Assembly: GCA_017889625.1 (NCBI GenBank)
Contig: JAGGAD010000017.1
Span: 1-64,000, forward strand
Length of the DNA: 64,000 nucleotides
Source: Bacillota bacterium
GTDB lineage: Bacteria; Bacillota; Negativicutes; Sporomusales; CTSoil-080
Direction of reading: 5' to 3'
How positions within the stretch are numbered: the stretch's first letter is position 1; every line of letters begins with the position of its first letter. The notes under the pieces are model-generated. The model ran no database searches, was not told where the DNA came from, and saw only the letters and a program-made list of their open reading frames with translations. The position numbers and the translations under genes are program-made. Below are positions 3,801 to 45,941 of the stretch, in pieces.

Positions 3801-7352
<3,552 letters not shown>

Positions 7353-32834: not shown

Positions 32835-33443
32835 TTGAAAAAAACACTAACGATTGCATTTTTCCTTATTTTAATGATGTTAGGACAATCCATTGCATTA
32901 GCAAATATTTTTGATCCGGAACCCGACCAACCCGCTAAACCCGAAGATCCTCGTCCAATTGTCGCTTTATTGTTTGTAAATAACGCCAAGACCACTTATG
33001 ACAATGATTTAACCGATAAAATCATGACTAACTTTGACAATTTGTTAAAATCCAAATATATCGTAGTTCCGGGTACCAAATACGTAGAGCTTTTAAGCAA
33101 ACAAGGAATTGTTGACATTACAACCGCCGAACGTACAGATATTGTCGATGCTTTTAGAGGTGAAAATGTTGACTACGTCCTATATTGCGAACTTCAACCT
33201 TTCGTTAGAAAAGAAAAAATTACTTTCTTCACGCAAGGCATTAATATGACCGCCATAATTCCAATTAAAATTATTAGTCTTAAAAGCGGCAAATACTTAT
33301 ACAACGGCAAATTTACCGAATTCGCATCTGACTCCACTATGATTGGCAGCGTAGGCAATAAATCGGTTTCTCTTAAAGCCCTTGATAAAACTATTGAACA
33401 AATGAATTCCATTATAGCTGCTCGTTTACCTGAAACCAAATAA
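32835..33443 (+). CDS. secreted protein of unknown family, paralogue 1
   Basis: A 202-residue protein with a signal peptide (hydrophobic residues 5-23, ending SIALA) and no lipobox. The start is TTG with AGGAAGGGA 5 bases upstream. The mature part shares with its neighbour the order (V/I)DY, LQPF, RKEK, a phenylalanine-rich strand, then MTA and a GKYLYNGKF/GKCLFSKTF strand. No known family is recognised. Expected in the periplasm of a diderm cell. Confidence 0.8.
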   Translation: MKKTLTIAFFLILMMLGQSIALANIFDPEPDQPAKPEDPRPIVALLFVNNAKTTYDNDLTDKIMTNFDNLLKSKYIVVPGTKYVELLSKQGIVDITTAERTDIVDAFRGENVDYVLYCELQPFVRKEKITFFTQGINMTAIIPIKIISLKSGKYLYNGKFTEFASDSTMIGSVGNKSVSLKALDKTIEQMNSIIAARLPETK

Positions 33444-33464
33444 TTGGAAAGAGTTGAACGTTCA

Positions 33465-34100
33465 ATGCGTTTTGTACTTTTACTATTACTGCTAATAGTA
33501 ATTGCGGCCTTTCTGCCGCAATTCGGTTTTGCTCAAGAAAGACAGAAAGCCAGCATTGCTATTGTTTATAATAACAATAGTAACTCCGCTTTTAACTCCG
33601 CAATAGATGAGCATGTGATGAACTTCTTTCACAAAAAAGTAGACGGGATATATAACTTAGTCTCCGGCGACAACTACAAGAAAAACTTGTTTAATAACGG
33701 CACGTTTCCTTCACCTAGTGTCATTGTTGATGCTGTCCAAAACGACAATATCGACTACATCATCTATCTCCAACTTCAGCCATTTCAGCGCAAGGAAAAG
33801 GTCGCCATTTTCCGCTATGGCAAAGACATGACGGTTACGGCCATTCTTAATATATACAACGGGAATACCGGAAAATGCTTATTCAGCAAAACCTTTTCGG
33901 CCAACGCCGCCGATGACAAATCACAAGTTTTCCTTGAGGATAGTATAACTTCCTGGATAACCATTCGGAGCAAGAATCTTGGTTTGGAATCAGTTGATAA
34001 AGTCTTATACCAAGCTGGTGAATATATCTCCGTTAATTTACCACTTGATCCTTTACCCCATAAGGCAATTAAACAAGCTCCAGTTGAATCAAATATCTGA
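33465..34100 (+). CDS. secreted protein of unknown family, paralogue 2
   Basis: About 211 residues with a signal peptide (MRFVLLLLLLIVIAAFLPQFGFA). ATG at 33465 is chosen because it starts the signal sequence directly; an in-frame TTG at 33444, which abuts the stop of paralogue 1, is less likely. The core contains IDYIIYLQLQPFQRKEK and FRYGKDMT, matching the first gene. The two are adjacent, so a tandem duplication and a joint periplasmic role are likely. Function unknown. Confidence 0.78.
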   Translation: MRFVLLLLLLIVIAAFLPQFGFAQERQKASIAIVYNNNSNSAFNSAIDEHVMNFFHKKVDGIYNLVSGDNYKKNLFNNGTFPSPSVIVDAVQNDNIDYIIYLQLQPFQRKEKVAIFRYGKDMTVTAILNIYNGNTGKCLFSKTFSANAADDKSQVFLEDSITSWITIRSKNLGLESVDKVLYQAGEYISVNLPLDPLPHKAIKQAPVESNI

Positions 34101-34103
34101 CCT

Positions 34104-34131
34104 CACCCCAGCCTAAAAGAAGGGCTGGGGG
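34104..34131 (+). terminator. terminator after the secreted paralogues
   Basis: CCCCAGCC pairs with GGCTGGGG around a 9-base loop, followed by TTATTGTTTT on the plus strand. Confidence 0.85.
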
Positions 34132-34197
34132 TTATTGTTTTGGCTTATTGCCTTTACAGTATACCACCCGTCCTTGAGCGTAAAATGAAAGAAGTTA

Positions 34198-34242
34198 CAA
34201 AGGCACAGGAAGTGGGAAAGTCCCGTTTTTCCTGTGCCTTTG
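34198..34242 (-). terminator. terminator after TolC gene
   Basis: AAAGGCACAGGAA and TTCCTGTGCCTTT form a 13-base stem between the convergent transcripts, about 40 bases past the TolC stop; it may act in both directions. Confidence 0.75.
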
Positions 34243-34279
34243 TGATTATGAGGTTTTTAACATTATTCCGGTTTATAAG

Positions 34280-35578
34280 TCAATCTTTTATTTCAGCAGT
34301 TTTCCCAATAGCTTTTTCCAGTTCGGCTTTACTTACATTATAGTCATAAAGCGACTGAATATAATTGCTTCTAGCTAGTGTAAAAGCCACCTGGGCGTCC
34401 ATTACGTCTAGGTTAGTACCCAGATTAACGCCATAACGAGCTTGAGCCAGGGAGAAATCTTCTTTGGCTTTAGCAACAGCCGCCTTAGTTGCTAATATAT
34501 TACTTTCGGCCCGCTGCATATCAAGGTAGGCATTTTGGACACTAAGTTCTACAATATTATGTATATTGTTAGCTTGATGCCTGGTCTGATCCAACAGGTT
34601 TTCCGCGGATTTTACGCCTGACTTTGTTATATTTCCGTCAAACACATTTATATTCGCCGTCACCCCAACCATCCATTGTTTAGTGTCAAACCGATCAATT
34701 TTAGTATCATATGTTCCATATAAAGCATTAAAAGACACATTTAATTTTTTATTGGCTTCAGCGGTTTTAATACTAAGTTCCGCTTGTTTAACTGCTTTTT
34801 GCGACGCTAATTCATCCGGCCGGTGCGTAAAAGCATAGGCCATACAAGCGTCTAGCTTGTAATCATTTGGTTCATACGTCAGACTATCCTTAATTCCCGT
34901 ATTGTTTTGGATAGGCAGCCCTATTACTTGATTAAAAGCCGAGACGGCCTTTTTAGTGTTATTTTCTGCTGTTATCAAAGCTTGCTTGGCATTAGCCAGT
35001 TCTACTTCCGACCGCAGCATATCCGCTTTGGTCGCTGTACCTACTGCGTACTGGGTTTCTACATTTTTTAAGTGCTCAGCAAGCTGTTTTACCGCTTCTT
35101 CCCTAACCATCTGAAAGCTTTGACAGGCTAAAATATCGTAGTAATCTTTCGTGGTTTGGAATTTTATATCTTGCTTAGTATTTTCTAAGTCGAGCTCACT
35201 AATTTGTGTGCCCAGTTCCGCTTTTTTAATTGTACTTTCAATCCGGCCACCGGTATAAATGGGCATCGCTGCCGATACCGAGTTCATAAAATATTTTGTG
35301 GGCAGATCATATAGGTAAAAAACATTCCAGTACTTGCCACCAACTTCCGAAGATGTATGCGACAAATTCACCGACATATTTTTTTCGCCTTTGGCTTTAG
35401 CAAAATTCCATTTTGCGGCTTCTACACCACTGGCAGCCGCTTGGATTTGCTCATTATTGTTTAGCGCAAGGTTAATACTTTCGTCTAATGTCAATGTATC
35501 CTCGGCAAAGGCCGGGAATGCTACTGTCATAAAAGAAAGCAGCATAAACGCAGTAAGGTAGGTTTTCTTTTTTTTCAT
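34280..35578 (-). CDS. TolC-family outer-membrane efflux protein
   Basis: About 432 residues with a signal peptide (MKKKKTYLTAFMLLSFMTVAFPAFA) and two repeats of the outer-membrane efflux domain, rich in long amphipathic helices (LNNNEQIQAAASGVEAAKW and ARYGVNLGTNLDVMDAQVAF). It forms the outer-membrane channel of a tripartite pump. The ATG at 35578 follows GGAGG. It is last in an operon behind an ABC-2 permease and an HlyD adaptor, all minus strand. Confidence 0.92.
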   Translation of the reverse strand: MKKKKTYLTAFMLLSFMTVAFPAFAEDTLTLDESINLALNNNEQIQAAASGVEAAKWNFAKAKGEKNMSVNLSHTSSEVGGKYWNVFYLYDLPTKYFMNSVSAAMPIYTGGRIESTIKKAELGTQISELDLENTKQDIKFQTTKDYYDILACQSFQMVREEAVKQLAEHLKNVETQYAVGTATKADMLRSEVELANAKQALITAENNTKKAVSAFNQVIGLPIQNNTGIKDSLTYEPNDYKLDACMAYAFTHRPDELASQKAVKQAELSIKTAEANKKLNVSFNALYGTYDTKIDRFDTKQWMVGVTANINVFDGNITKSGVKSAENLLDQTRHQANNIHNIVELSVQNAYLDMQRAESNILATKAAVAKAKEDFSLAQARYGVNLGTNLDVMDAQVAFTLARSNYIQSLYDYNVSKAELEKAIGKTAEIKD

Positions 35579-35635
35579 AAATTCCTCCAGGTTATATCCT
35601 TCTATATTATCCAAAATTATACATCGAGCGAAACA

Positions 35636-36784
35636 TCAAGCATTCTGCAGCAGTTTCCTGCGTTCGCGATAAAAGAACAGACAAACAAGCCCCGCTAGAA
35701 TTCCCGTGTATATGACTAAACCACCAAATTCCTGGCCGACATCCATAAAAGAAGCCCCGCGCAAAATAATATCTCTGGTGAAATGGTACATCCAAGTAAG
35801 CGGAAATACATGGCTTATAATTTTTATCCATTCCGGCAGAAGTGCAACCGGCTCAGTATATCCGCCAAGAATAAACCCGCCTGGCAAAAATAAAATCATT
35901 TTGCTGATAGCCACCCCCGGATTGGCAGCTCCCCAGCCAAAGAGTATACATATAAAGCTGAGCGAAAGTACATACAGTACAACCGCAAATAGGAAGGTAA
36001 AAACATTTCCGATAAACATTAGATCACCTACTACCCGCAATATCCCCAGGCCAACAAAAAGGCCAGTTAAAAGGCAACCGCAGTAAGGCAATGCTCTAGC
36101 CATAAGCGCAAACGGATTCCCCGCCAGCAGCTGATCTTCCCATTTATGTACAAGCCGCAATCGAGCTATCATGCCAATAAAGGCAAATACAAAAAACATT
36201 GAAGAAAAGAAGAACAAAAAACCTATTATCATGGTATTACTCGAAGAGCCATTCGGATTAAACAGCAGCCGCTCATTAATTGAAATATTTCCGATAACCG
36301 CTGCCGTCTGCTCTGAGTTTAAACCTTGTGACGCAATCTCAGGAGCAGCAATAATATTATTTTCGATAGCGACAATTGTATTTAGCGCCCCTTTAACATC
36401 ACCGGTTTGCGCACTGCTTGTATTGTCATAAAAAACCCCGATGCTATTCTCTGATTTATCATAACGCTTCTTTTCAAAGCCATTCGGAATATACACAACC
36501 CCAAGATACTTATCTTGATATAACAGTGTTTTCGGATCTGTAGGCACATTGATTATAGCTTCAACTTTAATATAGGGCGATGCATTCATTTTTCCGATAA
36601 ACTCGTGGCTAAATTTTGAGTTATCTAAATCAATAACCGCAATTTTACCATCTTTAATATAATTATTCGAAAGTATTACGGAAAACAGCAGCGTAACAAC
36701 AATGGCAATCATTAATGATACTTTATGATACGGCATGCCTTGGCCAGAGAAGAAATACGTGAGCTCATCTTTTAAGAATCGCAT
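35636..36784 (-). CDS. ABC-2-type transporter permease (YhhJ/YhiI-like efflux)
   Basis: This 382-residue protein has one N-terminal helix (about 25-40), a large extracytoplasmic domain (40-190) and five or six C-terminal helices, the layout of ABC-2 permeases that export drugs or polymers. No ATP-binding subunit is encoded beside it, so the ATPase must be elsewhere. GAGGTG precedes ATG. It overlaps the end of the HlyD gene by 20 bases. Confidence 0.85.
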   Translation of the reverse strand: MRFLKDELTYFFSGQGMPYHKVSLMIAIVVTLLFSVILSNNYIKDGKIAVIDLDNSKFSHEFIGKMNASPYIKVEAIINVPTDPKTLLYQDKYLGVVYIPNGFEKKRYDKSENSIGVFYDNTSSAQTGDVKGALNTIVAIENNIIAAPEIASQGLNSEQTAAVIGNISINERLLFNPNGSSSNTMIIGFLFFFSSMFFVFAFIGMIARLRLVHKWEDQLLAGNPFALMARALPYCGCLLTGLFVGLGILRVVGDLMFIGNVFTFLFAVVLYVLSLSFICILFGWGAANPGVAISKMILFLPGGFILGGYTEPVALLPEWIKIISHVFPLTWMYHFTRDIILRGASFMDVGQEFGGLVIYTGILAGLVCLFFYRERRKLLQNA

Positions 36785-37901
36785 CTTTTTTCACCTCAAT
36801 TGTCATTCCCGGCAGTAAATCTTCGCTTGGCTCTACATAGATCCGAATTTGAAATGCAGCAAGATCAGCTTGTCCTTTTTCGCGACTCATTTTTAAATCG
36901 GCAAATCCAGGTGCAGCGGTAATAAAACGAATAGTCCCTTTTACCTCCTTAGTATTTGCTACAACCCCGCCAACAATTTGATTTCCCACTTGCAGTTTTG
37001 AAGCAACAAGTTCGTCTACATAGATATCATAATATTGCCTTTTAGTTTCAAGCAGAATAACCGGCGAATTCGGAGCTACCATTTCGCCTTCCCTAGCAAT
37101 AATCTGAAGCACTTTACCATCTTCCGGCGCCCTTAGCGTCAAGCGATCTTTTTTAACCTGTAATTCCTTAAGTTGCACCAACAAATTCTGTTTTTGCTGC
37201 ATAAGGTCCTGAACACTATACTGATTGTTGGCGATTGTTTGACGCTGCTGGTCAATTTCCGGAAGATAAACATTGCTGGCATCACCACTGGCTAAAACCT
37301 GACTTTTCGCCCCAGCATTGCTGCCCGCAAGCATTTTATCAAGGAGGCTTTGCTGCTGACTTACGTTAGCACTGGCCACATCAAGTGCGGCTTGAGCACT
37401 ATCGAGTTCTGACGGAGATACGGCACCGGAATCAGCTAACGCCTTTTTACGATTATAGTTTAGCTGCTGATTATCATAGGTAGCTTTAGCCGCATCAAGT
37501 GCAGCTTTTTGCTGTTCAATTTGCCGATAGGTTTTCTCCTCAGCTGTTGAGGTTTTAGCATAATCGATAGCAATACTACCACTCATTTGACCTATCTTAG
37601 CATCCATTTGGTTAATTTGGGTCTGTAGACGTTGTATTGACAAATCCACGTCGGTACTATCAAGCACCATCAGGATATCACCTTTTTTTACTTCTTGGGA
37701 TTCCTGAACCTGTTTAGTAACTAACCGCCCTCCTACATTTTCAAAGGCAAGCTTCACTTGTTCCGCTGTCAAAATCCCTTCTTTTTTCTCAATGGCCAGT
37801 GCCACCGCATCGTGACCTCTTAAAACCAGTAGCATCCCACCAATAAAAAGCAAGACAAAAAATATAAGGCCCACAACTATTGTTTTCTTTTTTAGATCCA
37901 T
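36765..37901 (-). CDS. HlyD-family membrane fusion protein
   Basis: A 378-residue periplasmic adaptor: one N-terminal anchor (IVVGLIFFVLLFIGGMLLVL), a lipoyl-like half motif (GRLVTKQVQESQEVKKGDILMVLD), a long coiled coil with Q/A-rich heptads (about 85-240), the second lipoyl half (LRAPEDGKVLQIIAREGEMV), and a beta-barrel domain. It bridges the inner permease to TolC. GGAGTC lies before ATG. It is first in the hlyD-permease-tolC operon. Confidence 0.92.
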   Translation of the reverse strand: MDLKKKTIVVGLIFFVLLFIGGMLLVLRGHDAVALAIEKKEGILTAEQVKLAFENVGGRLVTKQVQESQEVKKGDILMVLDSTDVDLSIQRLQTQINQMDAKIGQMSGSIAIDYAKTSTAEEKTYRQIEQQKAALDAAKATYDNQQLNYNRKKALADSGAVSPSELDSAQAALDVASANVSQQQSLLDKMLAGSNAGAKSQVLASGDASNVYLPEIDQQRQTIANNQYSVQDLMQQKQNLLVQLKELQVKKDRLTLRAPEDGKVLQIIAREGEMVAPNSPVILLETKRQYYDIYVDELVASKLQVGNQIVGGVVANTKEVKGTIRFITAAPGFADLKMSREKGQADLAAFQIRIYVEPSEDLLPGMTIEVKKDAILKR

Positions 37902-37931
37902 ATTCAGACTCCTATCAAATAAGTTTTTAAG

Positions 37932-38078
37932 CTAATCTAACTTTATTTTTTTCAATAACTGCGCTTCTTTACGATTGGACTTATCCATTAATCTGGCTGT
38001 GTAAGATATGTTCTGATAATATTTCTTACATAAATTTCTTACCATCCCCAGCGAGAGCAACAACTTTTTCTTGATCAC
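37932..38078 (-). CDS. possible small basic ORF upstream of hlyD
   Basis: A GTG-started frame of 48 codons lies directly upstream of hlyD, with AAGGATG about 13 bases ahead. The product is lysine-rich (begins MIKKKLLLSLG, ends LLKKIKLD). It could be a leader peptide or a chance open frame; no family is recognised. Apart from this, the 320 bases between hlyD and the next gene hold only a terminator. Confidence 0.25.
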   Translation of the reverse strand: MIKKKLLLSLGMVRNLCKKYYQNISYTARLMDKSNRKEAQLLKKIKLD

Positions 38079-38160
38079 CGCTGCATCATCATCCTTTTTT
38101 CACTGGCGTCGATTATTAAGCTAGACTAACCTTAATCCCGCTATCTCCAGATACAACTAA

Positions 38161-38198
38161 GGCTTTAGTCATCCTGAATCTTCAGGCTGACTAAAGCC
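38161..38198 (-). terminator. terminator after secreted protein gene
   Basis: GGCTTTAGTC and GACTAAAGCC pair, with an inner CCTGAA/TTCAGG stem, 24 bases past the stop at 38222. Confidence 0.75.
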
Positions 38199-38221
38199 CC
38201 TACAATGCGGATAATTTTAAG

Positions 38222-38665
38222 CTATAGAAAACGAGGTTCCTTACTAAGCAGCTGCTTCGTTTTTTCTATATCTTGTTTGAAATTTTCTGGGGCAATGTTT
38301 AAGGTTTTTGCTACATCGTCCCATTTATTAGTGTTTTTCTTCATTTCAAGTACCTTAGTAATATCACCAACAGCTTGATTTATTTGGTCGTTTTTCTCAC
38401 TTTCCAAAACCGCGGCTGGTTTTACTGGTTCGGTATTTTCCGCCAAATAGCCAGCGGTAATCACATCACCCAAACTATAGCCTTGATCTAATAGATAATA
38501 TACAACACTCTTAGGAATCGAAATGGTTTGGCCTACTGTGCCGATATAAGCATCTGCCTCAGTACACCACTCACTGTAGTTGCCGCTAGCATGACTCACC
38601 GCCGGCACACCACCATTAATTAATAACATCAATGCGAAAATAGCTACAATAATTTTTTCTTTCAT
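38222..38665 (-). CDS. secreted protein of unknown function
   Basis: About 147 residues with a signal peptide (IIVAIFALMLLINGG, cleaved near SHA-SG). A lone cysteine lies at about 33 in SEWCTEAD. The rest is mostly helical, including IPKSVVYYLLDQGYSLGDVITAGYLAE, which looks like a small helical fold. The ATG at 38665 has AGGAG 10 bases upstream. It faces the RHH-TPR gene across four operator-like repeats, so it is a likely target of that regulator. Confidence 0.75.
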   Translation of the reverse strand: MKEKIIVAIFALMLLINGGVPAVSHASGNYSEWCTEADAYIGTVGQTISIPKSVVYYLLDQGYSLGDVITAGYLAENTEPVKPAAVLESEKNDQINQAVGDITKVLEMKKNTNKWDDVAKTLNIAPENFKQDIEKTKQLLSKEPRFL

Positions 38666-38700
38666 AATAAACATACTCCTTTGTATTGTCCTTGTTATAA

Positions 38701-38774
38701 TGTATTACATTTTATCTCTCTATGTATTACATTATAACTTATTGTATTACATTTTTCAAGTACTATATTACATT
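38701..38774. repeat. four phased TGTATTACATT repeats (operator array)
   Basis: TGTATTACATT starts at 38701, 38723 and 38743, and the variant TATATTACATT at 38764. Spacings of 22, 20 and 21 bp put all copies on one helix face. Each contains the palindrome TGTATTACA. The array lies 35-110 bases upstream of the secreted gene and about 110 bases upstream of the RHH-TPR gene. Confidence 0.75.
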
Positions 38775-38846
38775 TTTATTTTTATTAACAGTTTTACTGT
38801 ATCAGCTGTAATAATCTTTAATAATTTTTCAATATTTTGTTTACTA

Positions 38847-38864
38847 TATATTAAATTTAATATA
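38847..38864. promoter_or_regulatory. 18-bp perfect palindrome
   Basis: TATATTAAATTTAATATA is a perfect palindrome 20 bases before the start of the RHH-TPR gene; AT-richness makes chance possible. Confidence 0.35.
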
Positions 38865-38884
38865 TTCTTTATTTATAAAGGAAG

Positions 38885-39775
38885 GTGTTTATAATAGCTA
38901 AGCAAACCAATGTCACTGATGAGAAAACCACAGTTAGCGCCAGGGTTAATGCTACTGCAATTAATATTTTTAAACAAAAGGAAGTCCCTATTTCCGATGT
39001 AATCGAGGCGGGAATTATTTATTTTTTAAGTTTAGCCGACGACGACAAAGTCGCATACTTATTGAAAAACAACTCAGAGGTATTTGATAATGAGGACTTT
39101 AAAATCCCCAATACTTCGTGGCCCGAATGTATTAGGGCTGCCTTAGACTTAGATGAGTCCGCCTCAATAAAGGATGAGGTGCGAGGCTTTAAAGCAGCAG
39201 CAAAATGGTCTTCAGATAAGGGTGCATCTAGGCTTGCCCAGTTAAGCTTAAGAAAACTAAGTACTACAGAAATTATTAACAAAGCGGATTTTCTCAGCCA
39301 AAACGGGCAATTGCAAGAAGCACTAGCATATTATGATTACGCCATGGGTGTACTAAAAAAAGCCAATAAAACTAGGGAAATGGCTAGAATTAGCATGGCT
39401 GTCGGCGATGCCTATTGTTCTATTGGTAATTTTTCATTAGCCCTAGCTGCTTATGATGGTGCTGAAGCTAGTTTTACCAGCAGCGGCAAGCATGTCAGTG
39501 ATACCGCAGAATTAACCTTAGCCCGCGGTATCTGCTTCCAAAAATGGGGAAAATATAAAGAAGCCGTCAGATACTTTGACGCCGCCCGCGAATTGTTTGT
39601 TCAACTCGGGAATACTGATAAACTTAATCAGACCATTACCAGAATGGCAATATGTATTGAATACTGCGATCCGGAATACTCTGTATCTTTTTTTGATAAT
39701 GTTATTAATTATTTTGTTACAATGCAACAACAGCGCAAGGACAAAATGGCTAATTATAATAGCAACTCAAATTAA
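38885..39775 (+). CDS. ribbon-helix-helix/TPR fusion protein, probable regulator
   Basis: A 296-residue protein. Residues 14-52 fit an Arc/MetJ ribbon-helix-helix: a strand (TTVSARVN), helix 1 (ATAINIFKQKEV), a turn and helix 2 (PISDVIEAGIIYFLSL). From about residue 135 to 290 come four or so TPR-like helix pairs (LQEALAYYDYAMGVL, FSLALAAYDGAEASF, YKEAVRYFDAARELF). The start is GTG with AAAGGA just upstream. The pairing of an RHH DNA-binding head with a TPR sensor or partner-binding body is unusual. The phased repeats upstream are its probable sites. Confidence 0.8.
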   Translation: MFIIAKQTNVTDEKTTVSARVNATAINIFKQKEVPISDVIEAGIIYFLSLADDDKVAYLLKNNSEVFDNEDFKIPNTSWPECIRAALDLDESASIKDEVRGFKAAAKWSSDKGASRLAQLSLRKLSTTEIINKADFLSQNGQLQEALAYYDYAMGVLKKANKTREMARISMAVGDAYCSIGNFSLALAAYDGAEASFTSSGKHVSDTAELTLARGICFQKWGKYKEAVRYFDAARELFVQLGNTDKLNQTITRMAICIEYCDPEYSVSFFDNVINYFVTMQQQRKDKMANYNSNSN

Positions 39776-39853
39776 TTTATCCTATTGCTTTTAACCTGCA
39801 TTCTCCATTTACAGCAAAGCAATAAGGCCTAAAACAATTAATCAGCGCAATAC

Positions 39854-39900
39854 AAAAAAGGGCCAAAATCCTCGCACTTTCTAGGATTTGGACCCTTTTT
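39854..39900. terminator. bidirectional terminator
   Basis: AAAAAGGGCC and AAATCCT pair with AGGATTT and GGACCCTTTTT. It lies between the convergent RHH-TPR and 68-residue genes, with T runs both ways. Confidence 0.85.
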
Positions 39901-39931
39901 ATCTTGCTTTTGATATCCAGTCATACTATTC

Positions 39932-40126
39932 TTATATTTCCTTTCCCTTGTAGAGAGTACGATATATTTCAACTTTTTTCCCTTGACTTTGATATTTAAC
40001 TACTTCTGCCGGAAATTCGGCCTCTTTCGTGTATTTATATTTACCATTCAATAAATATAAATATATAACTCCTTCCGTTTTTTGCGATAATTCAAAGGCT
40101 TCTTTGTAAATTTTGGTTTTGGTCAT
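39932..40126 (-). CDS. small hypothetical protein
   Basis: With ATG at 40126 (AGGAG 11 bases upstream) the product is 64 residues, cytoplasmic and lysine-rich, with short strands (VIYLYLLNGKYKY, KKVEIYRTLYKG). No family is recognised. Two TGTATTA motifs lie upstream at 40173 and 40194, 21 bp apart, like the array at 38701, so it may belong to the same regulon. Confidence 0.6.
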   Translation of the reverse strand: MTKTKIYKEAFELSQKTEGVIYLYLLNGKYKYTKEAEFPAEVVKYQSQGKKVEIYRTLYKGKEI

Positions 40127-40300
40127 AGTTACTAACACTCCTAGTAATTAAATAATTACCATTTTCCTCTTTTGTATTATAATAAGTGATATTTGTATTA
40201 AATGCAATTGTATTTTTATAATAATTTTGCCTCACCTTTTATTTTATAATTAGCAATTATTTAATATAAATCACCAGCAATACCATAATCGGCATAAAAA

Positions 40301-40352
40301 AATATTGGAAGGTCTTCCTCATTGTTAAGGGTGAGGAGGGCCTTCCAATATT
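40301..40352 (-). terminator. terminator after rubredoxin gene
   Basis: AATATTGGAAGG and CCTTCCAATATT pair, with an inner CTTCCTCA/TGAGGAGG stem, 19 bases past the rubredoxin stop. Confidence 0.8.
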
Positions 40353-40370
40353 TTATACATTTTTTGTTGG

Positions 40371-40529
40371 TTACTGTTTTTCAAATTGGTCTTTACCAAC
40401 GCCGCAAGTCGGACAAACCCAATCCTCTGGCAGACTATCAAAGGTTGTTCCAGGCGCAATCCCGTTATCGGGATCTCCTACTGCTTCGTCATACTCATAA
40501 CCGCAAATGGTACATACATATTTAGCCAT
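40371..40529 (-). CDS. rubredoxin
   Basis: A 52-residue protein with the two iron-binding loops [10 protein letters not shown] and CPTCGVGKD, and the conserved [10 protein letters not shown] and LPEDWVCP segments. It is a small one-electron carrier, here a likely donor to rubrerythrin, desulfoferrodoxin or the peroxidase system encoded nearby. ATG is preceded by GGGAG 11 bases away. It lies downstream of ohrR on the same strand. Confidence 0.95.
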
Positions 40530-40636
40530 TGTGCAACACACTCCCAGTTGTTTTTATATTTTATTTTAGGTATATTTTACCATTAATATTCCAAAATTTC
40601 TATTATTATTTTATTTTTTTTACTAATTAATTGTTT

Positions 40637-41080
40637 TTATCTCTTGGTGACAGATAGCCTCGTCAATAATTCTTTCAATTTATTTCGCAACAGCGTAGCT
40701 TCTTCCATTGTTAAGTGCGATGCACAAAAAACCTTTTCTGGTATTTCATAAGCAGCTTTCTTTAGTTCTCGGCCTTTATCGGTAAGCCTTATGCGAAGGT
40801 TTCGTTCATCGTCTTTGCTACGCTCTCGAAATAATATTCCCGCAGCCTCCATTTTTTTGAGCAACGGGGTTAAGGTGCCTGAATTTAGCAAGAGTCTTTC
40901 GCCTAATTCCTTTAAGGTAACGTCATCCTTTTCCCAGAGAACCAACAGCGTAATATATTGCGTATAAGTCAGTCCTAGGGTATCCAATATTGGTCTATAT
41001 AAACCTGTAATCTCCTTCGCACAGGCATAGACAGCAAAGCATAACTGATTATCTAATTTAAGCAGACTATCTTTATCCAT
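40637..41080 (-). CDS. ohrR: OhrR-type MarR-family peroxide sensor/repressor
   Basis: A 147-residue winged-helix repressor. LDNQLCFAVYACAKEI near the N terminus holds the reactive cysteine (Cys14) that senses organic hydroperoxides in OhrR, and LGLTYTQYITLLVLWE plus the wing region (SKDDERNLRIRLTDKG) are typical. Its canonical binding site, TACAATTAAATTGTA, occurs at the trxB promoter 2 kb upstream. Its own upstream region holds a degenerate version (ATCAAATTAAATGAT at about 41130-41146). The ribosome site is weak. Confidence 0.92.
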   Translation of the reverse strand: MDKDSLLKLDNQLCFAVYACAKEITGLYRPILDTLGLTYTQYITLLVLWEKDDVTLKELGERLLLNSGTLTPLLKKMEAAGILFRERSKDDERNLRIRLTDKGRELKKAAYEIPEKVFCASHLTMEEATLLRNKLKELLTRLSVTKR

Positions 41081-41188
41081 AATAATTACTCATTTCATCA
41101 TTTGATTTAATTCGTGCTTTTTATTTTATCAAATTAAATGATGATATACCATAGCTAGTCTACCCAATAAGTGCGCGCTACTTACTAT

Positions 41189-41737
41189 TTATCCTAGCAA
41201 TTTTTCAATATCAGCCTTCATCGCCAGCGGCGTGGTTGTCGGTTCATAGCGGCCTACAACTTTTCCATTACGATCGATCAAAAATTTTGTGAAATTCCAT
41301 TTAATCGAATCACCCAATAAGTAATCGGGAAAATTATTTTCCAAAGCCTCTTGTAACCCCTTCCCAATCGGGTGGTTTAGATCAAACCCTTGAAAAGGGA
41401 TCTGACTTGTTAAATACGCAAATAGGGGATTAGCGTTTTCGCCACGTACATCAGACTTAGCAAACAAGGGGAAGGTTACACCGTAATTCAGCTGACAAAA
41501 ACTACGCACTTCATCATTACTGCCTGGTTCCTGCTCCGCAAATTGATTGCTGGGAAACCCGAGAATCTCCAGCCCTTGATCAGTATATTGGTCATACAAC
41601 GCTTGCAGTTCCTGGTATTGCGGCGTAAACCCGCACTTGCTGGCCGTATTGGCAATAAGGAGCACCTTTCCTTTAAAATCTCCCAACGAAACGTCCTTGC
41701 CATCAATCATTTTTACTGTAAAATCATAAACACTCAT
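41189..41737 (-). CDS. glutathione-peroxidase-family thiol peroxidase
   Basis: A 182-residue GPx-fold protein. The peroxidatic residue is a normal cysteine in NTASKCGFTPQY (about residue 35), with Gln in FPSNQF and Trp/Asn in IKWNFTKF completing the catalytic tetrad. It is a non-seleno GPx, a group generally reduced by thioredoxin-like proteins. AGGAGG precedes ATG. It follows the trxB-glutaredoxin pair by about 50 bases, and those two may be its reducing system. Confidence 0.93.
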   Translation of the reverse strand: MSVYDFTVKMIDGKDVSLGDFKGKVLLIANTASKCGFTPQYQELQALYDQYTDQGLEILGFPSNQFAEQEPGSNDEVRSFCQLNYGVTFPLFAKSDVRGENANPLFAYLTSQIPFQGFDLNHPIGKGLQEALENNFPDYLLGDSIKWNFTKFLIDRNGKVVGRYEPTTTPLAMKADIEKLLG

Positions 41738-41786
41738 TTTTATAGCCTCCTAGTATTTTAATATTAGCCAATCTAATATATACATA

Positions 41787-42023
41787 TCATTTTTTTAAAA
41801 TTGCTAACTGCTCATCAATTTTTTCCCGGTCAAAACCAGTAATAACCTGATCATTAATCTTTAGTACTGGAATATTGAGCTGATTAGTCAGCGCCAAAAG
41901 TTCACTGCGCCCGGCTAAATCCGTCTCCACATTTATCTCGGTAAATTCTGCCTGCTTCAGTTTTAAATAATCCTTGGTCTTTTTGCACCACGGACAATCC
42001 GTTGAAGTATACACTGTAATCAT
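41787..42023 (-). CDS. glutaredoxin/NrdH-like thiol-disulfide protein
   Basis: A 78-residue thioredoxin-fold protein with a CPWC active site (residues 10-13), the cis-proline in NIPVLKI and a C-terminal TGFDREKIDEQL. NrdH-like proteins accept electrons from thioredoxin reductase rather than glutathione. The ATG overlaps the reductase stop by 4 bases, so both are made together and probably form one electron chain. Confidence 0.92.
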   Translation of the reverse strand: MITVYTSTDCPWCKKTKDYLKLKQAEFTEINVETDLAGRSELLALTNQLNIPVLKINDQVITGFDREKIDEQLAILKK

Positions 42024-42979
42024 TTCTCAGCCCCCATTTTTTCACTTTCTTTTTGACGCAAAATATATTTTTCAGCCAATAGGGCTGCCACCGTGCCGTC
42101 AGCAGCCGCAGTAGTCAATTGACGAATCGGCTTCGTTCTTACATCACCAGCCGCGTATACGCCAGCAATATTTGTTTCACAAGTTTCTCCAGCCTCAATG
42201 TAACCAGCTAAATCGGTTTTAATAGAAGTTTTAAACAACTCCGTCCGCGGCGAGGAACCAATATTGACAAAAACTCCGTCAAGTTCCAGTACCCTGGTCT
42301 GATGATCAACTATACTTTGAATATCCACGGACTCAACAACAGACTCACCATTAATCTTAGTAATCACCGAATTAAGTAAAATTTCAACATTAGCATACCC
42401 CGCAAGCTTCTCCTGTCGCAGCGTTTCCGCCGTCAACTTGGCGGAACGATTAATAAGATAGATCTTTTTTGCATATTTAGTTAAAAACTCAACTGCGCCA
42501 ACCGCGGCATTTCCGCCGCCAACAACTGCGATCGTTTTCCCTTCATATAAGGGACCATCACACAATTCGCAGTAATGAACCCCATTACCACGAAACTTTT
42601 GTTCTTCCGCCGCCGGAAGTTCTCGCCGTTTGGCCCCAGAAGCGATGATAACAGCACGAGGCCGATAAATGGCTGTTTCCGTTTCAACAATTTTTTCGTT
42701 GTCTGTTAAAGTAACAGCAACCACTTTATCAAATTCATCAACAACCGCCCCAGCCTGCATTGCTTGCTGCTCTAGATTATCGATCAACTCACTGCCTTTA
42801 ATCTTGTTAAAGCCCGGAAAGTTTTCAACTATATAAGCATTTTTAATCTGCCCGCCAACAAGTTCATCTTCCAAAATCAAGGTATTCAATTTCATCCGAG
42901 AACCATACAAACCAGCTGTCAACCCGGCAACACCAGCCCCAACGATAAATAAGTCAACTTTTTTTTCCGTTTTTCCCAT
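42020..42979 (-). CDS. atypical thioredoxin-reductase-like flavoprotein
   Basis: A 319-residue FAD protein with GAGVAGLTAGLYGSR (FAD) and the C-terminal GVYAAGDVR. The redox site is YCELCDG, CELC rather than the usual CATC. The second nucleotide site reads VVGGGNAAVGAVEF and LINRSAKLTAE, lacking the HRRxxxR arginines that fix NADPH. NADH or ferredoxin as donor is possible (inference). It opens an operon with the CPWC protein and GPx, under a promoter overlapped by an OhrR box. Confidence 0.88.
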   Translation of the reverse strand: MGKTEKKVDLFIVGAGVAGLTAGLYGSRMKLNTLILEDELVGGQIKNAYIVENFPGFNKIKGSELIDNLEQQAMQAGAVVDEFDKVVAVTLTDNEKIVETETAIYRPRAVIIASGAKRRELPAAEEQKFRGNGVHYCELCDGPLYEGKTIAVVGGGNAAVGAVEFLTKYAKKIYLINRSAKLTAETLRQEKLAGYANVEILLNSVITKINGESVVESVDIQSIVDHQTRVLELDGVFVNIGSSPRTELFKTSIKTDLAGYIEAGETCETNIAGVYAAGDVRTKPIRQLTTAAADGTVAALLAEKYILRQKESEKMGAEK

Positions 42980-43005
42980 AGTTGATACCTCGCTTTACTG
43001 CTTCC

Positions 43006-43054
43006 AGCCAATATAGATTGTGTACAATTAAATTGTACACAATCTATATTGGCT
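43006..43054. promoter_or_regulatory. 49-bp perfect inverted repeat containing an OhrR box
   Basis: Two 24-base arms pair exactly around one central A. The middle (43023-43037) is TACAATTAAATTGTA, the consensus OhrR site known from Bacillus. The repeat covers the spacer and -10 of the trxB promoter, ideal for repression. Confidence 0.85.
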
Positions 43055-43060
43055 AGTCAA
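43032..43060 (-). promoter_or_regulatory. trxB-operon promoter
   Basis: On the minus strand TTGACT (43055-43060), a 17-base spacer and TACAAT (43032-43037). The -10 lies inside the OhrR box. Confidence 0.8.
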
Positions 43061-43122
43061 CCCCTATTTTATGTTTTTACCTAGAAGCAAAGTAAAAAAC
43101 CGCCAATTTCGGCACTAAAAAA

Positions 43123-43153
43123 AACAATCCTCCCATATATCGAGAGGATTGTT
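43123..43153 (-). terminator. terminator after rubrerythrin gene
   Basis: AACAATCCTC pairs with GAGGATTGTT, and eight T residues follow on the minus strand. Confidence 0.92.
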
Positions 43154-43174
43154 ACCTTAGCATTATCTGTATCA

Positions 43175-43711
43175 TTAATAATTAGCAGACCTAATTTCGA
43201 AATAAGCTTGGGGATGATCACAAACCGGACATGTTTTCGGAGCTTCAGTGCCGTAATGAATATGGCCACAGTTTGCACAAATCCAGCATTGTTTTTCTTC
43301 GCGCTTAAAAACACTGCCATCTTTTATGTTTTCAAGGAGTTTTTGATATCTTGCTTCATGTTCTTTTTCAATGGCCCCTACTGCTTCAAACAGGTAGGCA
43401 ACTTTGGTAAAGCCCTCTTCTTGGGCGGTTTTAGCAAAACCGGCGTACATATCCGTCCATTCGTAATGCTCCCCTGCTGCAGCATCTACTAGATTGGCAG
43501 CAGTATCAGGCATCCCGTCATGTAAGAGTTTAAACCAAAGTTTCGCATGTTCTTTTTCATTACCTGCTGTTTCTTCAAAAAGATCCGCGATCTGGTTTAA
43601 TCCTTCATTACGGGCTTTGGACGCATAGAAAGTATATTTATTTCTTGCTTGAGATTCTCCGGAAAATGCGGCTAAAAGGTTTGCTTCGGTTTTAGATCCT
43701 TTTAAATTCAT
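43175..43711 (-). CDS. rubrerythrin
   Basis: A 178-residue peroxide reductase. The four-helix diiron domain shows [31 protein letters not shown] and [15 protein letters not shown] with the Glu/His ligands; the C-terminal rubredoxin-like domain has CWICANCGH and CPVCDHPQ. It reduces hydrogen peroxide to water in the cytoplasm, with rubredoxin as a usual donor. AGGAGG lies before ATG, and the gene follows desulfoferrodoxin by 18 bases. Confidence 0.96.
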
Positions 43712-43729
43712 CGTTCAATCTCCTCCTAA

Positions 43730-44107
43730 TTAGATGGTAGTTTTCCAAAGACCGTGAAGATTGCAATAAGCATAGATTTCGGCCTTTTCTCTAGCTGCAA
43801 AAGTTGCTTCAGGTTTATCTGACGGCGAAAGCGAAATACGCTGGGTACTTGCACCATCAGCAACAGCAATCCATTCAATGTAATGGGCTTCGGTCATCGG
43901 ATGTTCGACACTACCAACGCGAACAAATAATTTTCCATCTTTGCATTCAGCAACAGGAACATGCTTTTCAACAGCGGCATCGGTGGTATTAGCCTCTAGT
44001 TTTTCCATAGGTTTACCACAGCAGACTAATTGACCCCCGCCGGTTTTAATCTGCTCTACAATATTCCCACAAATACTGCAGCGATAAAACTTAATGTCTC
44101 CACTCAT
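43730..44107 (-). CDS. desulfoferrodoxin (2Fe superoxide reductase)
   Basis: A 125-residue protein with an N-terminal desulforedoxin domain (CSICG and VCCGKP) and the catalytic neelaredoxin-like domain with VEKHVPV, GSVEHPMTEAHYIEWI and the C-terminal CNLHGLW cysteine/histidine pair. It reduces superoxide to hydrogen peroxide, which the next gene product, rubrerythrin, would remove. A good promoter and PerR-like box lie upstream at 44179-44207. Confidence 0.96.
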   Translation of the reverse strand: MSGDIKFYRCSICGNIVEQIKTGGGQLVCCGKPMEKLEANTTDAAVEKHVPVAECKDGKLFVRVGSVEHPMTEAHYIEWIAVADGASTQRISLSPSDKPEATFAAREKAEIYAYCNLHGLWKTTI

Positions 44108-44168
44108 TTCACAAACCCCACTCTCATCTTTTATTTATTAGTCATAACTAGTAACTTTTAATATTTTT

Positions 44169-44207
44169 TACAATTAATATTGTATATCTTTGGATAATAA
44201 TTGTCAA
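44169..44207 (-). promoter_or_regulatory. dfx promoter with PerR-like box and palindrome
   Basis: On the minus strand TTGACA (44202-44207), 17 bases, TACAAT (44179-44184). GGATAATAATTGTCA (44192-44206) matches 11 of 15 positions of the PerR box TTATAATAATTATAA. TACAAT/ATTGTA arms (44169-44184) surround the -10. It may serve the etf promoter as well, since etfB is divergent. Confidence 0.6.
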
Positions 44208-44275
44208 ATGTTTAAATATATTTTTATCCCCTTATCTGACATACTAACTTAAAAGCAAAGTTAGGAGGCTGGAAA

Positions 44276-44944
44276 ATGCATATTACCGTATGTATAAAGC
44301 AGGTTCCCGCTATATCAGAAATTGAAATTAACAAGGAAACTAATAATTTAGTTCGGGTCGGTGCCCCCTCAATGATTAATCCCGCTGATAAAAATGCCGT
44401 GGAGGAAGCCTTAACACTGAAGCAAGCCTATGGCGGAACCGTAACTGTCATTACCATGGGACGTATGGAAGCGACCGAAATTTTACGGGATTGCATTTCT
44501 ATCGGAGCCGATAAAGGCTATATTATCAACGATGACACTATTGCCGGTTCTGATACTTTAGCCACCGGTTATGTATTAGCAGAGACTATTAAAAAACTCG
44601 GCGGTGCCGATGTCGTCTTATGCGGCAAGCAGGCCTACGACGGCTATACCGGCCAGGTTGGACCAGCTATTGCCGAACGGTTGGGATTTGTCCAATTAAC
44701 TAATGTCCAAAAATTAGACCTTACCGATGATATTGTAACAGTTGAACGGCTTAATAATAGTGGGCTTGAAACTATTCAAGCAAAGCTACCGGTTCTGTGT
44801 ACCGTTATCGAGAACTGCAATACTCCTCGTAATCCAACCGTCAAAGCAAGAATGGCTGCTAAAAAAGCGGAGTTTGAAGTTTTAACGACTAAAAATTTGG
44901 GGCTTGATTTGGCACGATCGGCTAGGAGGAATGATAATGAATAA
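44276..44944 (+). CDS. etfB: electron transfer flavoprotein, beta subunit
   Basis: A 222-residue EtfB: ITVCIKQVP at the start, INPADKNAVEEAL, GADKGYIINDD, and the signature GKQAYDGYTGQVGPAIAERL. It carries AMP or FAD at the subunit interface. It is slightly short compared with usual EtfB (about 250-260). AGGAGG lies before ATG. No acyl-CoA dehydrogenase or other oxidoreductase partner is nearby, so the electron donor is unknown. Confidence 0.93.
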   Translation: MHITVCIKQVPAISEIEINKETNNLVRVGAPSMINPADKNAVEEALTLKQAYGGTVTVITMGRMEATEILRDCISIGADKGYIINDDTIAGSDTLATGYVLAETIKKLGGADVVLCGKQAYDGYTGQVGPAIAERLGFVQLTNVQKLDLTDDIVTVERLNNSGLETIQAKLPVLCTVIENCNTPRNPTVKARMAAKKAEFEVLTTKNLGLDLARSARRNDNE

Positions 44945-45941
44945 GAATATCTGGGTTTTCATGGAAACATTTACAAATAAATCCAAAACGGTTAGCTTGG
45001 AACTTCTTGGCAAGGGCCGTGAACTGGCTGATTCTCGTCAGGAAAAATTAGTGGCGGTTGTGATCGGCCAAGAAGTTGAGTCAGCGGCTAACGAGGCCAT
45101 ATTATATGGCGCGGATCAGGTATTGACGGTGTCAGGTGCTGACTATGAAAATTATTCGACCGATGGTTATACATATGCGATGGAACAACTGGTCAAAAGC
45201 TATAATCCTTTGGTGGTTCTGATTGGTGCAACTCCCAACGGACGTGATTTGGGCGGTCGTTTATCTACCCGTCTTAATGTCGGTCTGGTGGCCGAAGCAA
45301 TAGATTGTTATTTTGCCGCAGACAGCGATGAGGTTCAATGGATTCGCCCAGCCTTTAGCGGTAAGCTTTTTTCAAAGATCATAAACAAGAGCCGTCCTCA
45401 GTTGGCTACTATCGGCAGTAACATCTTTAGAGGCAATCAGCCTGATAAAAGCCGTACCGGCGATGTGATTGCCGAGAAAATTGTTACGCCTGCCACTTTA
45501 ATTCGAACTGTTTTGCTTAATTTTACATCGGTCTTTGCCGGAGCAGATAAAGTATTGACTCTTGATAATGCCGAGATCGTTGTATCAGCCGGTCGCGGGA
45601 TCGGTGATGCCGAAAAATTGGCCTTGATTAAAGATTTTGCTGATTCCATCGGGGCTGCTATGGGAGTTTCAAAACCATTGGTAGATGCCGGCTGGGTCCC
45701 CAGTGAACTCCAAGTCGGCGTAACCGGTAAAAAGGTAGCGGCGAAGCTTTATATTGCCTGTGGTATCTCCGGCGCGCTGCAACATACCCTGGGAATGAAG
45801 GATTCCGAGCTGATCATCGCAATTAACAATAATCCAGAAGCACCTATTTTTAAAATAGCGCATTATGGTATTGTAGGCGACCTCTTTAAGGTAATTCCGG
45901 TCTTGAAGGAAGAGTTTGCAAAACTTCCCCGCATTGTTTAA
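44937..45941 (+). CDS. etfA: electron transfer flavoprotein, alpha subunit
   Basis: About 334 residues. The FAD-binding C-terminal domain has VVSAGRGIGDAEKL, SKPLVDAGWVPSELQVGVTGKKV, YIACGISGALQHTLGM, IAINNNPEAPIF and HYGIVGDLFKVIPVL. The N-terminal part is the adenine-nucleotide-like fold. No ferredoxin domain is fused. ATG at 44937 overlaps the end of etfB by 8 bases and has AGGAGG 7 bases upstream; the longer frame start is not used. Confidence 0.94.
   Translation: MNKNIWVFMETFTNKSKTVSLELLGKGRELADSRQEKLVAVVIGQEVESAANEAILYGADQVLTVSGADYENYSTDGYTYAMEQLVKSYNPLVVLIGATPNGRDLGGRLSTRLNVGLVAEAIDCYFAADSDEVQWIRPAFSGKLFSKIINKSRPQLATIGSNIFRGNQPDKSRTGDVIAEKIVTPATLIRTVLLNFTSVFAGADKVLTLDNAEIVVSAGRGIGDAEKLALIKDFADSIGAAMGVSKPLVDAGWVPSELQVGVTGKKVAAKLYIACGISGALQHTLGMKDSELIIAINNNPEAPIFKIAHYGIVGDLFKVIPVLKEEFAKLPRIV

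Follow-up and report, generated by a model that had tools for sequence, protein, structure and literature searches.

A gene in the 64,000-nucleotide stretch of Bacillota DNA analysed here (the window) encodes a protein that joins a likely N-terminal ribbon-helix-helix (RHH) domain to C-terminal TPR repeats, and four near-identical palindromic sites stand in phase over the promoter of the divergent secreted-protein gene beside it. The RHH-TPR protein is probably a local repressor acting on this operator array, a reading that we base on the position of the sites and on sequence comparison across the order.

Phased sites over the promoter of a secreted-protein gene

The 11-mer TGTATTACATT occurs in three exact copies starting at 38701, 38723 and 38743, and the near-exact TATATTACATT, with one mismatch, starts at 38764. 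The start-to-start steps are 22, 20 and 21 bp, and the common core of the copies is a 9-bp near-palindrome, TGTA-T-TACA. The initial annotation had pointed to four near-identical 11-mers at these distances, and the observation is confirmed: the phased array is far beyond chance. When the 210-bp intergenic region was dinucleotide-shuffled 20,000 times, at least four sites with up to one mismatch appeared in 12 of the shuffles, and the longest phased chain (steps of 19–23 bp) had two members, against the four observed. Across the whole assembly the exact 11-mer is found six times, three of them within this array, which is also the sole genome-wide occurrence of the close double site TGTATTACA-N8-16-TGTATTACA. 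A looser pattern, TGTAWTACA-N10-14-TRTAWTAYA, searched in 28 genomes of the order, matches only in the window's genome, at this array and on contig C73.

The array had been described as lying between a divergent secreted-protein gene and the RHH-TPR gene; this is borne out, and the sites fall on the secreted gene's own promoter. The secreted gene (38222-38674, minus strand), the presumed target, encodes 150 aa and probably starts at ATG 38665; the N-terminus of its product resembles a signal peptide as judged by eye, and a Pfam search assigns it to no family. Its promoter, TTGAAA-17-TATAAT (38731..38759, minus strand), matches the consensus at 11 of 12 positions and is spanned by the array from approximately -50 to approximately +25. 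Annotated as features without strand, copy 1 (ATGTATTACAT, 38700..38710) lies ~20 bp downstream of the -10 box, copy 2 (ATGTATTACAT, 38722..38732) overlaps the end of that box, copy 3 (TTGTATTACAT, 38742..38752) fills the spacer between the -35 and -10 boxes, and the degenerate copy 4 (CTATATTACAT, 38763..38773) is located just upstream of the -35 box. Since the copies cover the secreted promoter, and the candidate promoter of the regulator has no good site, we take the array to be the operator of the secreted gene.

Conservation of site layout across the order

Near-full-length homologues of the RHH-TPR protein are found only within the order: identity is 68% in G002 (a Bacillota MAG), ~52% in G017, ~45% in Sporomusa silvacetica DSM 10669 (G022) and ~44% in Sporomusa sp. 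KB1 (G027), and homologues from genus g4 are 29–33% identical. Three of these orthologues are accompanied by pairs of WTGTNNNACAW sites exactly 22 bp apart (6071/6093 of locus L037 in G017, 4824/4846 of L038 in G022 and 4868/4890 of L039 in G027; shuffle P <=0.001 each), the site definition having been widened from TGTATTACATT to this form after the comparative sites had been seen. Every pair directly adjoins the -10 box of a promoter that agrees with the consensus at 11 of 12 positions. Counted from the end of the -10 box, the offsets are 0 and +22 in all three genomes, compared with -1 and +21 in the window, where two more sites follow upstream; this register was compared after the sites had already been found. 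The two Sporomusa genomes are close relatives and are therefore counted as one lineage. In ~194 kb of scanned DNA (some loci twice) no further such pair occurs outside these loci, except at the XapX promoter of the window's own genome.

The genes behind these sites differ between lineages. G002 keeps the divergent secreted orthologue next to its RHH-TPR gene (139 aa, 45% identity), with a degenerate array that includes one perfect copy. Both Sporomusa genomes carry an unrelated secreted protein behind the operator promoter (118 aa in G022). In the g4 loci examined, the regulator is followed by a different secreted gene in the same orientation. Genus g4 has no strict operator pair; five upstream regions, aligned and read by eye, have in common a GTNTNACA block and, 21 bp from it, a block resembling TTATTAC, which only hints at a degenerate operator pair.

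The site layout recurs while the neighbouring gene changes, so the operator appears to follow the regulator and not the target. Likewise, because matching pairs adjoin the RHH-TPR gene in three more genomes, the RHH-TPR protein is the likely binder and its neighbour the likely target. The initial annotation had named homologues without repeats upstream as evidence against its reading. Only the remote g4 homologues, at about 30% identity, are of this kind. The proposal that the regulator controls the secreted protein is thus supported by the array on the secreted promoter and by the same register beside orthologues, with the secreted gene as the likely target. Searches of viral contigs, phages and plasmids found no relatives of the regulator (in plasmids, unrelated TPR proteins only), and a mobile-element origin is therefore not supported.

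A candidate small RNA of ~190 nt is found at 5898-6131 (minus strand) of locus L037 in G017, with a TTGACA-17-TATATT promoter that carries the 22-bp operator pair. The predicted transcript contains no convincing ORF, ends in a terminator and folds better than all shuffles (z -3.5). Rfam returned no family above threshold and one sub-threshold chance match for this non-coding stretch, and nothing for positions 33000-45000 of the window.

Domain architecture of the regulator

The fusion of RHH and TPR parts claimed at the outset divides into two halves of unequal standing. The TPR half (residues ~127-260; 39263..39664, plus strand) is certain from Pfam, AlphaFold2 and Foldseek: TPR_12 is matched with E=6e-14 in the RHH-TPR protein and by 11 of 11 homologues, and the AlphaFold2 model has pLDDT of mostly ~90 over this region. 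The RHH half is less firmly placed, with Pfam silent and weak hhalign alignments to CopG and CcdA. This putative domain (residues 13-50 counted from GTG 38885; 38921..39034, plus strand) reads KTTVSARVN, helix A, VPIS and helix B, as delineated by alignments, a domain model and weak hhalign matches. Pfam RHH models give no match in the protein itself, and RHH_3 is reached by a single family member only, at E=0.13.

Structure prediction, which had been suggested as a check for an RHH fold, supports the two helices and leaves the strand unassigned. In the full-length AlphaFold2 model, pLDDT is below 50 over residues 1-76; the N-terminal domain modelled alone reaches pLDDT 79 with helices at 20-28 and 33-46 and no strand assigned, a result that would not be surprising for an RHH protein modelled as a monomer. 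A Foldseek search with this domain lists the RHH protein Reg576 at E=10 beside two unrelated chains, and VIA gives a weak similarity to Reg576 (Z 3.4, rmsd 8.5). Profile comparison with hhalign yields low-probability matches to CopG (P=0.0012), CcdA (P=0.003) and RelB (P=0.016), whose scores are reached by 0/100, 0/100 and 2/100 shuffles, respectively, and the three alignments have similar registers over helix B. Arc, NikR, PutA and ParD do not rise above shuffles; for Mnt one shuffle in 100 reaches the score, but the alignment is out of register. The comparison sequences are presumably those of the named proteins; the CcdA sequence is a 100% match to a plasmid record. The N-terminal profile has chance matches only among PDB sequences. 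Taken as a whole, the N-terminal domain is likely, not proven, to be RHH.

We also considered an HTH reading of the N-terminus and rejected it: there is no HTH match, and the two HTH controls, Cro and 434 cI, are not above shuffles in hhalign.

The N-terminal domain is conserved in a small family in which some members are short proteins without TPR; a search of 398 genomes of the phylum turned up only two further short proteins with the domain. Three proteins of 119-138 aa (L011 1495-1911, L083 631-990 and L084 964-1371) share the domain but carry no TPR, and a hydrophobic stretch is present near their C-terminus. The domain is thus also used elsewhere, perhaps at the membrane. A match to a histidine kinase in G275 was rejected as chance.

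Start and promoter of the regulator gene

The RHH-TPR gene is listed at 38885..39775 (plus strand), where GTG 38885 is the mechanical start of the open reading frame. This codon is doubtful as the true start, because it falls within what looks like the Shine-Dalgarno sequence and, in the orthologue from G017, is not in the reading frame. Alignment makes ATA at 38894 the more likely start: the codon at this position is ATA in the window's genome (G000), G002 and G017, where both Sporomusa genomes have ATG.

A candidate weak promoter, TTTACT-17-TATTCT (38840-38868, plus strand), was recognized by eye below the scan threshold and is conserved in G002. It contains no site with fewer than two mismatches, and the regulator start follows the array at a distance of 130-193 bp. 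The earlier suggestion of an autoregulating switch therefore finds no support in the window. The promoter of the regulator in G017 does have two imperfect sites, and the gene may be autoregulated there.

Further candidate sites in the same genome

Contig C73 (L092 3634-3688; G000:C73 ~45133-45187) has three operator-like sites at steps of 22 bp, the first of them on a TATAAT box. The promoter concerned, TTGACA-17-TATAAT, precedes a gene for a 51-aa XapX/DUF1427 protein (TIGR03510/PF07235) that, within the order, is present in this genome only. The window itself contains a weak phased pair, TGTATTATA and TGTATTAAA, 21 bp apart (40172..40204, no strand; starts 40173/40194), whose first site overlaps a TATAAT box before a 64-aa ORF (39935-40126, minus strand). 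With two sites, scored 7/8, and P ~0.015 in shuffles, this ORF is a possible second local target. If real, the sites on C73 and at 40173/40194 would make up a small regulon. A CcdA family search of the same genome gave nothing above the cut-off.

Proposed mechanism and competing explanations

We propose that the product of the gene at 38885-39775 represses transcription from the cytoplasm and consists of a likely N-terminal RHH domain and a C-terminal TPR domain for sensing or assembly. RHH dimers would bind the palindromic WTGTNNNACAW operators, whose centres are spaced by about two helix turns (20-22 bp) along one face of the DNA, and the TPR part would probably let neighbouring dimers cooperate, or else receive a signal. 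With four operators bound over its promoter, RNA polymerase would be blocked and the secreted gene would stay off until a signal releases the protein. The array itself, its overlap with the promoter, and the return of this spacing and register in the operators next to orthologues are read directly from the sequences; binding by the RHH-TPR protein, repression, cooperativity and the signal are what we infer from them.

The array could instead be bound by another factor that serves the secreted family, such as an OmpR/PhoB-type response regulator acting on direct TGTAAYA repeats, with the RHH-TPR gene as a mere neighbour. Paralogues of the secreted gene (G000 contigs C66, C70 and C100; G001) do have a -10-like box that is preceded by pho-box-like direct repeats of 11 bp (TGTAAYA/TGAAAY), with half-sites oriented as in the window. 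These repeats, however, are non-palindromic and stand upstream of the -10 box, in the position of an activator, whereas the window sites are palindromes 20-22 bp apart over the -10 box and +1. The same palindromic pairs are moreover found beside the RHH-TPR gene in G017, G022 and G027, where the secreted family is not adjacent. We regard this explanation as unlikely.

Somewhat less likely still is binding by the RHH-TPR protein mainly as an activator or architectural protein. Some RHH proteins can activate transcription in addition to repressing it, and copies 3 and 4 of the array occupy the -35/-10 spacer and the region upstream of the -35 box. Yet the controlled promoters are near consensus (11 of 12 positions), so an activator should not be needed, and at all four strict-pair loci there are sites that overlap the -10 box or follow it closely, an occluding position. 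Repression by the RHH-TPR protein is favoured because the sites overlap the -10 box and +1 at such near-consensus promoters.

Least probable of all is peptide quorum sensing in the style of RRNPP systems, in which the processed secreted protein would re-enter the cell and bind the TPR of an RHH (not HTH) regulator. The layout of DNA-binding domain, TPR and adjacent secreted gene agrees with it, and Rap and PlcR appear among the many TPR proteins returned by a fold search with the TPR part, but eukaryotic and designed TPRs rank above these two. What speaks against this reading is that the secreted neighbour is both long (150 aa, and 139 aa in G002, against the propeptide range of 10-100 aa used by RRNPP_Detector; PMC10075063) and exchanged between lineages, for an unrelated protein in Sporomusa and an apparently non-coding transcript in G017.

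Relation to known regulators

By alignment, the N-terminal domain appears to have a short N-terminal strand followed by two helices, as do CopG, Arc, MetJ, omega, Reg576 and CcdA. Stand-alone RHH repressors and RHH antitoxins bind short palindromic operators repeated in register over the promoter, and tandem operators of this kind are present here. The resemblance has limits: the operator step is 20-22 bp, or two turns, compared with about one turn in stand-alone RHH repressors and CcdA; a TPR domain of ~130 residues takes the place of no further domain or a toxin-binding tail; and, unlike in those proteins, the N-terminus is missed by Pfam RHH models. NikR, a nickel-responsive repressor, combines RHH with an ACT domain and binds half-sites about two helix turns apart as one assembly. 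The RHH-TPR protein is similar to it in having a C-terminal sensor domain and a two-turn geometry, but the sensor is TPR instead of an ACT-type nickel-binding domain, the sites form arrays of full palindromes, and no nickel gene was noticed nearby.

The RRNPP regulators (PlcR, NprR, Rgg, PrgX, AimR) resemble the present case in the combination of a DNA-binding domain, a C-terminal TPR sensor and an adjacent secreted gene. No Pfam HTH family is found in the RHH-TPR protein or its homologues, and the adjacent secreted product, of 150 aa in the window, 139 aa in G002 and 118 aa in G022, with none found in G017, is too long for a propeptide of 10-100 aa and is not conserved. The PhoB/OmpR box differs in turn: it consists of direct repeats of 11 bp that precede the -10 box, as opposed to palindromes at 20-22 bp over the -10 box and +1.

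Searches of Pfam, NCBIfam and the literature turned up no RHH-TPR fusion. A tentative extension, to which we give somewhat less than even weight, is that these proteins form a new class among the one-component regulators of Sporomusa-like bacteria: RHH would replace the HTH of TPR-sensor (RRNPP-like) regulators, and regulator and operator would travel together as a module that, with its fixed 0/+22 pair, captures varied targets (secreted proteins, the XapX gene, a small RNA). If the fusion is confirmed, TPR would become one of the few sensor domains that are coupled to RHH, pairs of WTGTNNNACAW spaced by 22 bp and locked to the -10 box would provide a directly testable operator code, and the system would be a natural case of a regulator that retains its operator geometry while the target gene is exchanged.

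Observations on the secreted-protein family and its surroundings

Directly beyond the secreted gene, at 34280-37901 (minus strand), lie genes for an HlyD-type adaptor, an ABC-2 permease and a TolC-like protein. Elsewhere, pho-box-like 11-bp direct repeats (e.g. TGTAATAAAAC-TGAAATGTTAA-TGTAAC) precede a -10-like box ~55-100 bp upstream of secreted-family genes at L028, L029, L030 and L034, and the family may be phosphate-regulated. Two paralogues, L031 (G000:C60:73981-74358, minus strand) and L035 (G026:C202:11127-11507), have an apparent ATT/ATA start after a good GGAGG; the start context is ACATTATAAAAAAG in these two and ATGAAAAAG in other members of the family, and it is possible that rare start codons are used in this clade.
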